NCBI GenBank assembly: GCA_029009515.1
Contig: JAQXJZ010000012.1
Location: 1-41,311 of the forward strand
Direction: 5' to 3'
Length of the DNA stretch: 41,311 nt
DNA from: a bacterium
Lineage (GTDB): Bacteria; Bacillota; Clostridia; Christensenellales; Aristaeellaceae
Both the position numbers and the translations under genes were made by a program. The notes under the pieces were generated by a model, which saw nothing but the letters and a program-made list of their open reading frames with translations, ran no database searches and was not told the origin of the DNA. Shown one piece after another: positions 31,460-41,201 of this stretch; within the stretch, counting starts at the first letter, position 1; the number at the start of each line of letters is the position of its first letter.

Positions 31460-32557
31460 ATGGTCAATCAGGAAATCATCAAGCAGGATCTTGCCAAACT
31501 CCGCGACACCATCGAAAAGGCGTCTGACGCCCTGCATCTGCCCCAGCTGCGCGAGGAGCTGGAAGAGCTCAAGGAGGAAATGAACGCCCCTGAGTTCTGG
31601 AACGACCTCGAACGCTCTACCGCCGTCAACCGTAAGGTGAGCCAGATTGAAAACAAGCTGAGCCATGTGGCCAGCCTGTCCGCCCGCGCCGATGACGTGG
31701 AAGCCATGCTGGAGCTGCTGATGGAAGACGACGACGAATCCATCGCCGAGGAATGCGAAAGCGAGCTGGCCGCCCTCACTGCGGACGCCGACGCGCTGGA
31801 GCTGGAAACCCTCATGCGCGGCGATTACGACCACTGCGACTGCATCCTCAGCCTCCACGCCGGCGCTGGCGGAACCGAGGCCCAGGACTGGACCGGCATG
31901 CTCTACCGCATGTACACCCGCTACTGCGAGCGCCACGGCTACAAGGTGACCGTCAACGACTTCCTCGATGGCGACGAAGCCGGCGTGAAGAGCGTTACCT
32001 TCCAGGTGGAGGGCGAAAACGCCTACGGCTTCCTGCGCTCTGAGCGCGGCGTGCACCGTCTGGTGCGCATCTCTCCCTTCGACGCCAACGCGCGCCGCCA
32101 CACCTCCTTCTCCTCTCTGGACGTTGCGCCCATCATGGATGCGGACGACGATTTTGAGATCAACATGGAAGAAGTGCGCATCGATACCTACCGTGCCGGC
32201 GGCGCTGGCGGCCAGCACGTTAACCGTACCGACTCCGCCGTGCGTATGACCCATATCCCCACCGGTATCGTGGCCCAGTGCCAGAACGAGCGCAGCCAGA
32301 TCCAGAACCGCGAGGTCTGCCTTCGCATCCTGAAGAGCCGCCTGCTGGAGCTGCGCGAGCGCGAGCGTGAAGAGCAGATGGCCGACATCAAGGGCGAGAT
32401 GAAGAAGATCGAGTGGGGCAGCCAGATCCGCTCCTACGTGTTCCAGCCCTACACCATGGTCAAGGACCATCGCACCGGCTATGAAATGGGCAACGTGGAC
32501 GAAGTGATGGACGGCAACATCGACGGCTTCATCACCGCCTTCCTCAAGATGCAGTAA
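31460..32557 (+). CDS. prfB: Peptide chain release factor 2 (RF2)
   Basis: RF2 reads UGA and UAA stop codons and triggers peptide release. The 365-residue product has the tripeptide anticodon region with S-P-F (R-I-S-P-F-D) and the catalytic G-G-Q (A-G-G-A-G-G-Q-H-V-N). The normal N-terminal helical domain is present, with E-F-W-N-D near residue 50. The gene is open in one frame from ATG 31460: the programmed +1 frameshift found near codon 25 in most prfB genes (CUU UGA C) is missing, and continuous coding, A-S-D-A-L-H-L-P-Q-L, runs through that region. AAAGGAAG precedes the start. The following membrane-protein gene overlaps its stop by one base. Confidence 0.97.
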   Translation: MVNQEIIKQDLAKLRDTIEKASDALHLPQLREELEELKEEMNAPEFWNDLERSTAVNRKVSQIENKLSHVASLSARADDVEAMLELLMEDDDESIAEECESELAALTADADALELETLMRGDYDHCDCILSLHAGAGGTEAQDWTGMLYRMYTRYCERHGYKVTVNDFLDGDEAGVKSVTFQVEGENAYGFLRSERGVHRLVRISPFDANARRHTSFSSLDVAPIMDADDDFEINMEEVRIDTYRAGGAGGQHVNRTDSAVRMTHIPTGIVAQCQNERSQIQNREVCLRILKSRLLELREREREEQMADIKGEMKKIEWGSQIRSYVFQPYTMVKDHRTGYEMGNVDEVMDGNIDGFITAFLKMQ

Positions 32558-33171
32558 TGAAAAAGGGCCTGTGCATGCTTGCAGGCGCGCTGATGGCGGC
32601 ATGTGTGCTGCTGATCTCGGTGCTTGCGCCTGCGCTGAGCGTACCGCGCTTTGAACAAGCCCTTGTGAAAACCGTCAACATGCAGGCGCTGGGAATATCG
32701 CAAAGCGATCTCAGCGCCTTTGCGGCGGAAACCATGGGCTATCTGCGCGGCGAGAAGGACGCATGGCAGCCGCACATTCCGCACACGGGCGTGCCGGAGG
32801 CCTTCAGCATCCACATGGCCGAGGTGAAAGCGGCTGTGCAGGCTGCGCCGTGGGTGATTGCGCTGCTGATGGCTGCCGGGGTGGCGCTTCTGTGGCTGGG
32901 CGGCTGGCAGCGGCGGCGTGCGCTTTGGGGCGTGCTTGCGCTGATGGCGCTCCTTGCGCTGGTGCTCGTCTGGGCCATGGCGGATTTCCACTCCTTCTGG
33001 ATGGTGCTGCACAAGGTGTTTATCAGAGGCGGCATCTTCCCGTACGGAGAGCCCATCATGCAGCTGTTCCCGCTGAATTTGTTTTTTCAGTATATTGCGC
33101 CGGTGGGCGCGGTGGCTGCTGTGCTGCTTGCTGCTTTGTGCATTGTTTTGACTGTGGGAAAGAGGAATTGA
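32557..33171 (+). CDS. DUF1461 (TIGR01906) integral membrane protein
   Basis: The 204-residue product has an N-terminal helix (about 7-27), a polar outside segment with F-E-Q-A-L-V-K-T and Y-L-R-G-E, then three more helices. The stretch D-F-H-S-F-W-M-V-L-H-K-V-F-I before the last helix is characteristic of DUF1461 proteins (F-H-x-x-F-H-x-x-L-F type). Function is unknown. Its ATG overlaps the prfB TAA by one base, indicating termination-reinitiation coupling. It lacks a clear Shine-Dalgarno of its own, although AAGATGCAG is nearby. The stop lies 12 bp before the terminal inverted repeat of the element at 33184. Confidence 0.85.
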   Translation: MKKGLCMLAGALMAACVLLISVLAPALSVPRFEQALVKTVNMQALGISQSDLSAFAAETMGYLRGEKDAWQPHIPHTGVPEAFSIHMAEVKAAVQAAPWVIALLMAAGVALLWLGGWQRRRALWGVLALMALLALVLVWAMADFHSFWMVLHKVFIRGGIFPYGEPIMQLFPLNLFFQYIAPVGAVAAVLLAALCIVLTVGKRN

Positions 33172-33183
33172 GCTGACGTCAAC

Positions 33184-33512
33184 GGGCCACCTCATCACCG
33201 CTCCGCGGAGCTTCTCCTCAAGGTGAAGCCAATGAGCAGCGTTCGTTTCCTTCCATTCACGTCAACAAAGCAGAAAAAGTCGAGCAACACGTTGGCTTCT
33301 CCTTGAGGAAAAGCCAATGAGCAGCGTTCGTTTCCTTGCACACAAGTCAACGAAGAAGAAAAAGTCGAGCAACACGTTGACTTCTCCTCAAGGAAAAGCC
33401 AATGAGCAGCGTTCGTTTCCTTGCACTCAAGTCAACGAAGCAGAAAAAGTCGAGCAACACGTTGGCTTCTCCTTGAGGAGAAGCTGGCCCGGAGGGCCTG
33501 ATGAGGTGGCCC
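33184..33512. repeat. MITE-like element with terminal inverted repeats and an 85-bp tandem repeat
   Basis: The ends are a perfect 14-bp inverted repeat, GGGCCACCTCATCA (33184-33197) and TGATGAGGTGGCCC (33499-33512). Inside each end is a hairpin: GCTCCGCGGAGC (33200-33211) and GGCCC-GGA-GGGCC (33486-33498). Between them an 85-bp unit is repeated directly three times (33211-33295, 33296-33380, 33381-33465) plus the first 18 bases of a fourth. Each unit starts with CTTCTCC, a short loop and a GGA(G)AAG-like arm, followed by CCAATGAGCAGCGTTCGTTTCC. There is no transposase inside. It fills the 376-bp gap between the DUF1461 and DUF559 genes. Confidence 0.9.
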
Positions 33513-33547
33513 GTTCCTCGCCGAAGCCTTTCCAAAGGTACATCAGC

Positions 33548-33925
33548 ATGCCAAACACAACATACAACGGCACCCTCACCCCCAACGCCCGCACCCTTCG
33601 TCGCCGTATGACCCCCGAAGAACGCCGCTTGTGGTATGAATTTCTCAAACTTCTGCCTCAAACCGTCCACCGGCAGAAGGTCATCGGCCCATATATCACA
33701 GATTTCTACATTGCCACGGCAAAGCTGGTCATCGAACTGGACGGATCGCAGCACTATGATGCAGTCGGTCTTAGCAAAGATGCCGAACGCGACGCCTATC
33801 TGAGCAGCATTGGAATCACGGTGCTGAGATACACCAATCCGGATATCAAAAAACGTTTCAGCTACGTATGTCAAGATATCCTTCACCACATACAGCAGAT
33901 CCAAAGGAGTTTTCCTACGCCATGA
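33548..33925 (+). CDS. DUF559 endonuclease-domain protein (PD-(D/E)XK/Vsr-like)
   Basis: The 125-residue product has the DUF559 pattern: M-T-P-E-E-R-R-L-W-Y near residue 21, R-Q-K-V-I-G-P-Y-I-T-D-F-Y-I with a candidate catalytic Asp, V-I-E-L-D-G-S-Q-H-Y with Glu and the E-x-D-G-x-Q-H signature, then A-E-R-D-A-Y-L and V-L-R-Y-T-N. The fold is that of very-short-patch-repair and restriction-like nucleases; the biological role of stand-alone members is unknown. The start is ATG 33548, with AAAGG nine bases upstream. The frame continues back to 33317 through the tandem repeat, but 85 bp is not a multiple of three, so each unit would be read in a different frame. It overlaps tsaD by four bases (ATGA). 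It lies 35 bp beyond the repeat element. Confidence 0.85.
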   Translation: MPNTTYNGTLTPNARTLRRRMTPEERRLWYEFLKLLPQTVHRQKVIGPYITDFYIATAKLVIELDGSQHYDAVGLSKDAERDAYLSSIGITVLRYTNPDIKKRFSYVCQDILHHIQQIQRSFPTP

Positions 33926-34980
33926 ACACCCAACAGGAAATGCGAACCAAGCTGGAAGCCCTGCGCCAGAAGGAAAATGTGCGCATCCTTGCCATGGAAT
34001 CCAGCTGCGACGAAACCGCCTGCGCCATCATCGAAAATGGCCGCAAAATCGTGTCCTCAGTCATCTTTTCGCAGGTGGATACCCACGCGCTCTACGGCGG
34101 CGTGGTGCCGGAGATTGCCAGCCGCGCGCATGTGGATGCGTGCGACCGCGTGATTGATCAGGCGCTGAAGGAAGCCTGCATGACGTTTGGCGACATCGAC
34201 GCGCTGGCCTGCACCTACGGCCCCGGCCTTGTGGGCGCGCTGCTGACCGGCGTGAACTGCATGAAGGGCCTCAGCTACACCACGCGCCTGCCACTCATTC
34301 CCGTCAACCACATCGAAGGCCACGTGAGCGCCAACTTCCTCACCACGCAGGATCTGGAGCCTCCGTTCATCTGCCTGGTGGTCAGCGGCGGCCACAGCCA
34401 TCTGGTGCGCGTCAATGATTACGCGGATTATACCCTCCTTGGCCAGACCATGGACGATGCAGCCGGCGAGGCATTCGACAAGGCCGCGCGCGTGCTGGGG
34501 CTGAATTATCCCGGCGGCCCGCTGCTGTCGAAGCTGGCCGAAGGCGGCGACGAGAACTATCTCAAGCTGCCGCGCCCCAACCCGGACGGCAAGTATGACT
34601 TCAGCTTTTCCGGCCTCAAGACGGCATTCCTCAACGCCTGCCACAAGATGGATCAGAAGGGCGAGGAGCTGCCGCGCGCCGATCTGGCGGCTTCCTTTGA
34701 GAAGGCCGTGGTGGATACGCTGTGTGAGCGCGCCATGCTGGCCCTGAAGGACAGCGGACTGAGCACACTGTGCATCGCCGGCGGCGTGAGCGCCAACAAG
34801 CGCCTGCGCACGCAGATGGAGAAGCTGGCGAAGAAGCGTCACTTCCGCCTGTGCATGCCGGAACTGTGGCTGTGCACGGACAATGCGGCCATGATTGGTT
34901 CTGCGGCGTATTACCGGCTGAAGAAAGGCGAGCTGGCGGAGCTGGAGCTGAATGCGGTTCCGGCGCTGAAACTGGTGTGA
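33922..34980 (+). CDS. tsaD: tRNA N6-adenosine threonylcarbamoyltransferase TsaD
   Basis: TsaD transfers the threonylcarbamoyl group to A37 of ANN-decoding tRNAs, together with TsaB and TsaE. The 352-residue product has the family features: M-E-S-S-C-D-E-T-A near residue 23, the metal motif H-I-E-G-H (the H-x3-H of the ASKHA fold), V-V-S-G-G-H-S-H, D-D-A-A-G-E-A-F-D-K, G-G-V-S-A-N, and the final C-T-D-N-A-A-M-I. The start is ATG 33922, sharing ATGA with the DUF559 stop and with AAAGGAG 12 bases upstream inside that gene. The roughly 20-residue N-terminal extension before the first strand is slightly unusual. tsaB and tsaE are not nearby. A hairpin array starts two bases after the stop. Confidence 0.97.
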   Translation: MNTQQEMRTKLEALRQKENVRILAMESSCDETACAIIENGRKIVSSVIFSQVDTHALYGGVVPEIASRAHVDACDRVIDQALKEACMTFGDIDALACTYGPGLVGALLTGVNCMKGLSYTTRLPLIPVNHIEGHVSANFLTTQDLEPPFICLVVSGGHSHLVRVNDYADYTLLGQTMDDAAGEAFDKAARVLGLNYPGGPLLSKLAEGGDENYLKLPRPNPDGKYDFSFSGLKTAFLNACHKMDQKGEELPRADLAASFEKAVVDTLCERAMLALKDSGLSTLCIAGGVSANKRLRTQMEKLAKKRHFRLCMPELWLCTDNAAMIGSAAYYRLKKGELAELELNAVPALKLV

Positions 34981-34982
34981 TG

Positions 34983-35193
34983 CCGCCGGAGGCGGAGTGA
35001 AATCTGCCTTCGGCAGGTGAAATCCGCTGCGGCGGGTGAAATCTGCCTTCGGCAGGTGAAATCCGCTTCGCGGGTGAAATCACCTGCTGAAGCAGGTGGA
35101 TTGAAGTTAGAAGTCAGGAGAGGAAACGAACTGACTTCTTTTTTTTGCGCTCGAGCAAGCCGCGACCCCTTCCGGGGAGCGGCGGTCTTAGAT
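34983..35193 (+). repeat. TGAAATC-spaced hairpin array with composite tail, copy A
   Basis: Directly after the tsaD stop come short hairpins separated by TGAAATC, at 34998, 35018, 35037, 35057 and 35075 (period 18-20). Stems differ but stay paired: TGCC-TTC-GGCA, CGC-TGC-GGCG, CGC-TTC-GCG, ACCTGC-TGAA-GCAGGT. A tail follows: AGAAGTCAG (35109-35117) pairing with CTGACTTCT, then eight T (terminator-like), and a GCCGCGACCCC/GGGGAGCGGC hairpin (35159-35184). The same order of parts recurs reversed at 40957-41201. It accounts for most of the 323-bp gap up to 35303. Confidence 0.85.
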
Positions 35194-40956: not shown

Positions 40957-41201
40957 GACCGCCGCTCCCCGGAAGGGGTCGCGGCTCGCTTGACGGTATG
41001 GGGATTCTTGTTTGTTGGATGGGTCAGACCGCCGGTCGGCGGAAGGCCTCCCGGCTCGCTTGAGCGCAGGGGAATAGAAGTCAATTCGCTTCCTCTCCTG
41101 ACCTCTAACTCCAATCCTCCTGCTTCAGCAGGAGATTTCACCCGTCCCCCGGACGGATTTCACCTGCCGTAGGCAGATTTCACCCGCCGCAGCGGATTTC
41201 A
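40957..41201 (-). repeat. TGAAATC-spaced hairpin array with composite tail, copy B
   Basis: On the minus strand, directly after the stop at 41203, TGAAATC spacers occur at 41201, 41182, 41162 and 41140. They separate the hairpins CCGCTGCGGCGG, CTGCCTACGGCAG, CGTCC-GGGGGACG and TCCTGC-TGAA-GCAGGA. The tail then matches copy A: GGATTGGAGTTAGAGGTCAG, a gap, TTGACTTCT and GCGCTCAAGCGAGCC. The last module, CAAGCGAGCC with GGCGGTCT, occurs twice (41026-41066 and 40958-40993). Confidence 0.85.

Follow-up and report, generated by a model that had tools for sequence, protein, structure and literature searches.

The window, a stretch of 41,311 nucleotides from a gut-type bacterium, carries a palindromic element shortly before a small nuclease gene of the DUF559 family, and the two together separate a Lit/DUF1461-like gene from tsaD. 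This placement had been described in an earlier note, and the Pfam assignments of both neighbours agree with it: the "DUF1461" gene is Lit (PF07314) and the downstream gene encodes TsaD. The features are the following:

32557..33171, plus strand: upstream neighbour, a Lit/DUF1461-like gene (Pfam Lit, PF07314)
33181..33515, no strand: palindromic element, two inverted modules with tags outward, a REPIN-like pair with 17-bp perfect ends
33184..33229, plus strand: left module, with tag GGGCCACCTCATCA at 33184-33197, hairpin 1 at 33198-33208 and hairpin 2 at 33210-33229 (one mismatch)
33210..33484, no strand: 85-bp tandem repeat, 3.2 copies with 90% matches, each copy holding the hairpin-2 sequence and a spacer
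33465..33512, minus strand: right module, with hairpin 2 at 33465-33484, hairpin 1 at 33486-33498 and the tag at 33499-33512, facing the gene
33548..33925, plus strand: stand-alone DUF559 nuclease gene, intact, 125 aa (Pfam PF04480, E 1.8e-26)
33922..34980, plus strand: downstream neighbour tsaD, whose start overlaps the DUF559 stop by 4 bp (ATGA)

The element spans 335 bp and lies 32 bp 5' of the intact DUF559 gene, with its right module at positions -83 to -33 relative to the ATG. It consists of two double-hairpin modules, in each of which a tag (CCACCTCATCA) is followed by hp1, a short GC hairpin, and by hp2, a longer one of the type GCTTCYCCT..AGGRGAAGC. The 329-bp element with 14-bp perfect ends given in the earlier note is present at 33184-33512, but the ends turned out to be perfect over 17 bp (33181-33197/33499-33515), and from them an imperfect inverted repeat extends inward with 24-nt arms that are 96% complementary. 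The internal hairpins and the 85-bp tandem repeat were likewise recovered, and folding of 33181-33515 as single-stranded DNA gave -90 kcal/mol, whereas 100 shuffled versions averaged -47.5 (sd 4.7; z -9.0). With the window's own, the retrieved loci of its genome yielded 19 distinct outward pairs for alignment; the 18 other tag-outward copies have a recognisable common spacer, and the 85-bp tandem repeat is absent from them. A search for a right-hand (3') module of the window's DUF559 copy gave none that was recognisable, the modules standing on the upstream side only. As a whole, the initial observation is confirmed, and it understated the case. Elsewhere in the window, two arrays of a 20-bp unit (GGCGGGTGAAATCCGCCTTC and a complement-like form) occupy 34991-35081 and 41134-41201, with 4.7 and 3.3 copies.

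DUF559 is absent before tsaD in all 16 other genomes of the same genus (420 bp 5' of tsaD, with the end of the upstream gene present). One of these genomes, G009, has a gene-free module pair at exactly the window's junction, and in the other 15 no module pair was seen by eye at this site. At typA, a second site with 17 loci in all (L224 and L228 were left out of the reading), DUF559 and modules occur in 3 of the 15 genomes read and no DUF559 gene in 12, the window's own among them (330 bp read); G009 has a gene-free module there. Judging from the relatives, the last DUF559 codons in the window appear to run through what looks like the tsaD leader (AAAGGA before the ATG). The window copy is probably a derivative, in which an outward module pair is followed by an intact gene that has no right-hand module and whose last codons enter this leader.

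Pfam still describes DUF559 as a protein of unknown function. A profile search of the PDB with the window protein returned 3hrl (endonuclease-like, E 2.4e-21) and 3r3p (I-Bth0305I, E 0.0011), and Foldseek with an AlphaFold2 model (pLDDT 87.4, pTM 0.80) returned 3hrl (E 4e-6), 3r3p (E 7e-5) and, weakly, Vsr (1cw0, E 0.012). By sequence and predicted fold, the closest solved relative outside DUF559 itself is thus the homing endonuclease I-Bth0305I, with Vsr weaker, which qualifies the RAYT likeness drawn in the earlier note. An alignment of 52 sequences, the window's included, shows no variation at D52, E63, D65, H69, D78 and R81, and the EDxHD letters probably map onto the first five of these. 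No known transposase domain was found for the window gene in Pfam and further domain searches, and the six matches in PHROGs, all of them partial, include HNH and homing endonuclease families. A defence reading was discarded, PADLOC having given only partial matches (DpdF and mREase_II), and three weak Rfam matches to plant-type miRNAs, all below gathering scores, were taken as chance. Lodging in an intron or intein was not encountered in the window and nine annotated plasmid loci, where DUF559 lies between genes.

Double-hairpin modules at DUF559 genes

The wider set comprised 104 DUF559 loci: 24 from the window's genome and 59 relatives, with 6 of 30 rows left out as short partial matches (L079-L084), and 80 from named genome contigs. 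The latter are the best 80 of 572 relatives and lean to close relatives of the window protein. Among the 104 loci, including the best 80 of 572, a double-hairpin module lies within 250 bp of the gene in 99, some of them looking accidental; under a strict sequence filter modules are retained in 86, with 18 loci failing the filter and 5 showing no module. The tags at these modules are of the kinds CCACCTCATC, CAATCCCTC and CCCTCTCA.

The modules are concentrated at the gene. In the best 80 of 572, strict modules reach 4.88/kb up to 100 bp from the gene (80 loci; this bin includes the last 60 bp of the gene) and about 0.06/kb (range 0.03-0.11/kb) at 400 to 10,000 bp, a roughly 77-fold positional enrichment, and hairpins with a stem of at least 8 occur at 8.4/kb within 100 bp versus 0.36-0.54/kb beyond 400 bp. 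A simple hairpin is present within 200 bp at 73 of these best 80 of 572 loci, compared with 231 of 685 control ORFs from the same loci (p 3e-24); DUF559 genes of this kind are thus strongly enriched for such elements, contrary to the first refuting condition of the earlier note. Inverted similarity between the two flanks exceeds the 99th percentile of controls in 44 of 79 loci (from the best 80 of 572).

The modules are also oriented. Upstream of the gene, the tag of the nearest strict module points inward in 52 of 61 loci, and downstream in 51 of 65 (104 loci, including the best 80 of 572). The window copy, with modules on its upstream side only, is not the commonest form: usually the tag faces the gene, and strict inward modules frame it on both sides in 34 of the 104. 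In 25 of 55 cases the end of an upstream inward module falls in the interval from 1 bp before to 3 bp after the start of the ATG, and downstream inward modules start at least 20 bp before the stop in 25 of 66 (both including the best 80 of 572). In the latter the module supplies the last codons, so that annotated DUF559 C-termini include repeat sequence. DUF559 proteins such as those of L097, L102 and L163 end in module-encoded residues (..STSSTA..PPSPQGEG or ..SLSQLR).

To locate the boundaries of the unit, 216 pairs of loci that align over 300-1000 bp spanning the gene were compared, each pair counted once. In 111 of them homology extends beyond the gene start, in 105 it does not. Among the ends with a known module, homology has its limit no more than 10 bp from the outer hp2 edge in 81 of 101 on the left (18 further out, 2 further in) and 94 of 151 on the right (14 further out, 43 further in); the directed counts, in which each pair enters up to twice, are 151 of 192 and 194 of 298, respectively. 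Moreover, the query DUF559 gene is enclosed by 33 of the 38 pairs that face inward across 200-1500 bp, one of the remaining five enclosing a second DUF559 gene and four other sequence (best 80 of 572). Since homology ends at the outer hp2 and inward pairs enclose DUF559, the unit reads hp2-hp1-tag-gene-tag-hp1-hp2. It is about 455-480 bp (~460) long, each module (tag, hairpin 1 and hairpin 2) taking about 50-55 bp, and the gene with its flanking module pair was found at unrelated sites.

Further afield, 16 loci from plasmid and phage records (Alphaproteobacteria, Photobacterium, E. coli, Deinococcus, Cyanobacteria, a Bacilli plasmid and two gut phages) were read by eye without a control. Palindromes lie near the gene in 15, often as a single hairpin with a GTTAGGGTGGGG-like tag; by eye, a Thermoactinomyces locus has none near DUF559. 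Phage records gave three DUF559 matches, and both gut-phage loci read show palindromes near the gene. On a Sphingomonas parapaucimobilis plasmid (L195) the gene and its palindromes sit inside the suf cluster, between sufB and sufC, and in Deinococcus psychrotolerans a DUF559 gene lies between paaD and paaZ.

A Bacillota sample of 299 genomes contained 81 with a match, from which 20 loci with open frames of up to 398 aa were read; nine loci with frames over 1000 aa and rows not retrieved were left out. The full-length loci L264-L266 and L280, 4 of the 20, have palindromes alongside. By eye, the 16 divergent loci show no comparable modules, six having a single hairpin, and the claim is consequently limited to one clade of the Pfam family. 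Small GIY-YIG genes were considered as a further case of the same repeat link and rejected, as one of seven short loci has tandem palindromes and six do not. The exception (L295; G050, C26:44395-44613) is a short GIY-YIG gene bordered by tandem palindromes CGTCATCCTGAG..GAAGGATC, which resemble the CGTC REP super-family. In other GIY-YIG proteins, the C-terminal residues are encoded by repeats of this kind.

Co-presence, co-variation and signs of movement

The window's genome (G000), a 3.02 Mb draft that is 86% complete, has two DUF559 genes, both with modules within 100 bp, and window-type (type A) modules at 64 places. With 64 modules in 3.02 Mb, the chance of a module within 100 bp is about 0.7% per gene and, treating modules as independent, 4e-5 for both genes. 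In the fetched loci, hp1 is fully complementary in 15 of 20 distinct sequences, with 11 different 5' arms: hairpin 1 varies yet tends to stay paired. Dispersed module pairs were seen in G000 and in a relative, G017, which has eight gene-free inward pairs at different places, MITE-like, of near-constant length and with a partly conserved spacer.

Two module types, A (CACCTCATC..CTTCYCCT) and B (CAATCCCTC..CTCCCTT), were searched in 60 genomes, the window's and 59 relatives. Type A occurs in 3 of the 60 (G000 with 64 places, G009 with 85 and G017 with 20) and type B in 12. Of the 17 genomes with a DUF559 match at full length (E below 1e-20), 10 have at least one of the two types, compared with 3 of the 43 without (p 5e-5), six genomes with short partial matches (L079-L084) being counted as without; excluding two genomes whose only modules flank the gene, the figures are 8 of 17 and 3 of 43 (p 9e-4), and neither p value takes in relatedness among the genomes. 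The elements are thus less frequent in genomes lacking DUF559, contrary to the second refuting condition of the earlier note. Matching modules are present in both genomes with a type-A gene and in all six with a type-B gene.

The correspondence has exceptions. Type B occurs without any DUF559 hit in G023 (35 places in a genome 95% complete), G007 (2) and G016 (1). None of the 20 type-A modules of G017 lies beside its two DUF559 genes, and type-B modules are present in G002, G009 and G030, whose DUF559 genes are accompanied by a different type (G002, G009) or by no module (G030). Gene loss or unassembled parts of the drafts could explain these mismatches. In G023 (L189, L190) several modules recur at about 325 bp, in the same orientation, within longer composite repeats.

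The module sequence also varies with the protein. In a Mantel test of protein distance (first 112 residues) against module distance (tag and start of hp2) with 5000 permutations, r was 0.567 across 86 loci, including some from the best 80 of 572, where permutations reach at most 0.138, and 0.537 after leaving out close protein pairs. Within one genus, in which host ancestry is nearly constant, r was 0.846 for 12 loci and 0 of 5000 permutations reach it: the module sequence tracks the protein, not the host. Part of this co-variation could reflect joint inheritance of a linked unit rather than recognition.

Several loci bear signs of movement. Contig SVRT01000006.1 has two copies about 20 kb apart (L127, L134) that share an identical 496-bp block spanning the left tag, gene, right tag and right hp1. 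Beyond the block the flanking sequences are unrelated, the two copies have different left hp1 sequences, and a paired change distinguishes their right hp2; in the contig as assembled, no left hp2 can be recognised in the second copy. A gene-free pair also lies on this contig, with ends matching at 86-95% and a spacer that bears no relation to the gene. In two species that share the element at typA, it is 98-99% identical per 100-bp alignment window and the flanks mostly 87-97%, with one at 69%, and third-codon identity is 0.992 in DUF559 versus 0.800 in typA; in a third species the DUF559 variant is 60-80% identical per alignment window, with flanks mostly at 83-95%. One site in Azospirillum holds two gene forms (56-91% per alignment window, flanks mostly 86-99%), the second of which looks frameshifted. 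As far as sequence comparison can indicate, the identical copies and the typA and Azospirillum patterns fit exchange by recombination inside the modules. No target-site duplication was seen by eye in the G017 and L127/L134 alignments.

An apparent empty site in Sinorhizobium meliloti (L208, pSymB 1030423-1032828) was rejected, as DUF559 is internally deleted there and part of the right palindrome is kept; the gene deleted in L208 is present in three other Sinorhizobium strains. In Azospirillum argentinense (L210, about 1050-2220) a putative IS110-like transposase gene lies at the palindromic module before DUF559, and in Azospirillum ramasamyi the flanks match on one side only. Thirteen pairs were taken for dN/dS, of which two gave no output and two had saturated dS; among the nine computable, overlapping pairs, eight gave 0.05-0.10 and one, with very few differences, 0.83. 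By these estimates, the DUF559 gene is under purifying selection.

Known systems and competing explanations

REP/REPIN-RAYT systems (TnpA-REP, REPtron) share with the DUF559 system a small nuclease gene flanked by tagged palindromes, dispersed inverted pairs and an enzyme-specific repeat type. According to the available text of PMC3733652 and PMC8266576, RAYTs are HUH tyrosine enzymes and their REPs carry GTAG. The DUF559 system, on the other hand, has by Pfam and fold matches an EDxHD/Vsr-like enzyme and no HUH tyrosine transposase, tags such as CCACCTCATC that are not of the GTAG type, a unit with two hairpins, and a gene found together with its modules at unrelated sites. I-Bth0305I, an EDxHD homing endonuclease, is alike in sequence and fold and in the presence or absence of the nuclease gene at the same site among relatives. 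As described in the available text of PMC3943268, it is a multi-domain group I intron endonuclease that dimerises on a target of nearly 60 bp, whereas DUF559 here has one domain, is free-standing and is bordered by palindromes. With EDxHD homing endonucleases in general DUF559 shares a Vsr/EDxHD catalytic domain with conserved acidic residues and a histidine, and a DUF559 protein has already been placed in that family in PMC9403480, the main text of which contains neither 'inverted repeat' nor 'palindrom'.

Insertion sequences and MITEs are comparable in having inverted ends around one gene (34 of 104 loci here, including the best 80 of 572) and short gene-free pairs with similar ends, but DUF559 units have no known transposase domain and their ends are double hairpins. 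Tagged palindromes in inverted dimers are also formed by the CGTC-tagged REPs (Di Nocera et al. 2013); the available text of that survey (PMC3733652) gives them a single 8-9 bp stem with an unpaired CGTC, and says of this super-family that it apparently has no dedicated transposase. DUF559 modules have two hairpins, with GTC, where present, within the hairpin 1 stem, and on this structure the two were rejected as the same thing. In Legionella, a segment with a transposase and DUF559, and also GIY-YIG neighbourhoods, are reported as mutation and recombination hotspots (PMC12308824, available text). The literature searched, mostly outside preprints and subscription journals, yielded in its available texts no report of a DUF559-repeat system and no paper with both 'inverted repeat' and 'DUF559'; the main text of RepRanger (PMC12306157) has no word beginning nuclease, RAYT or transposase. 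Priority of the DUF559-repeat link is unproven on this literature, from which preprints and most subscription journals were absent.

The hairpin-rich repeats beside the genes of relatives suggest a previously unrecognised tiny mobile element, whose enzyme spreads the repeats or lives in them. The best reading is a mobile unit resembling a REPtron, in which a homing-type nuclease takes the part of the RAYT and would act by cleavage and copying. Mechanistically, the DUF559 protein (EDxHD/Vsr-type) would recognise its cognate module as duplex, cruciform or single-strand hairpin, and would cut or nick there; repair of a gene-free pair from a gene-bearing copy would carry the gene in (homing), and module pairs would spread as non-autonomous copies. 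That gene and modules are one selfish mobile system with homing-type copying into the modules is, in our judgement, an even call. More tentatively, and at slightly under an even chance, we propose that a widespread class of bacterial palindromic repeats is the substrate of DUF559, which would be a second enzyme lineage, unrelated to RAYTs, driving REP-like repeats as a homing nuclease; the repeats would serve as its landing pads, with a code particular to each nuclease clade, and gene and repeats would make up a ~460-bp self-spreading unit. Of the earlier note's proposal that a Vsr-like nuclease is paired with repeats in the manner of RAYT and REP, the pairing stands on enrichment and co-presence, and the part in which the protein keeps or moves the repeats keeps its conditional form.

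The anatomy fits RAYT-like transposition and homing alike. Under transposition, DUF559 would excise the unit with its bordering modules, or copy it, into new sites that hold no module, and would do the same with gene-free pairs, in the manner of an insertion sequence and its MITEs; the unit boundary at the outer hairpins, the eight MITE-like pairs at different places in G017 and the absence of the gene at the window site in 16 of 16 relatives, 15 of them with no module pair by eye, all agree with this. Copies with identical genes and different outer hairpins, and different DUF559 variants at the same site, fit copying into resident modules better. PD-(D/E)XK/EDxHD enzymes act by hydrolysis and, in contrast to HUH and DDE enzymes, are not known as strand joiners; for TnsA, joining falls to a separate subunit with which it works. 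We consider transposition rather unlikely. Three points incline us to homing: the homology of the enzyme with a homing endonuclease, the different gene variants held by one site and the different outer hairpins around identical genes. For some of the evidence, homing into modules is as good an explanation as RAYT-style transposition, or a better one.

The nuclease might instead be a passenger or a regulated host gene, with palindromes that are spread by another enzyme or act as terminators or operators of a host-serving nuclease, for example in Vsr-type mismatch repair. The many modules of G023 without DUF559 and the genomes with non-matching module types would agree with this, purifying selection would fit a host function too, and VsrA, a DUF559 protein of Caulobacter, has been proposed for mismatch repair (PMC12907096, available text). 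We find this improbable, given that the module sequence follows the protein within one genus, gene-size module pairs enclose almost only DUF559 genes (34 of 38; best 80 of 572) and the searched module types are rare in genomes without the gene. It is highly improbable that repeats merely gather between genes and happen to adjoin a nuclease: palindromes are indeed common between genes, as seen from the hairpins at 231 of 685 control ORFs, but this stands against 73 of the best 80 of 572 DUF559 loci, the orientation bias and the roughly 77-fold enrichment.

Many bacterial genomes hold palindromic repeats of open origin, and with a short, tractable nuclease whose sequence varies together with its repeats, bench experiments can address what spreads them. 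Part of the DUF559 family would thereby also gain a function. Should homing into palindromes prove right, the fields of REP elements and homing endonucleases would be joined.
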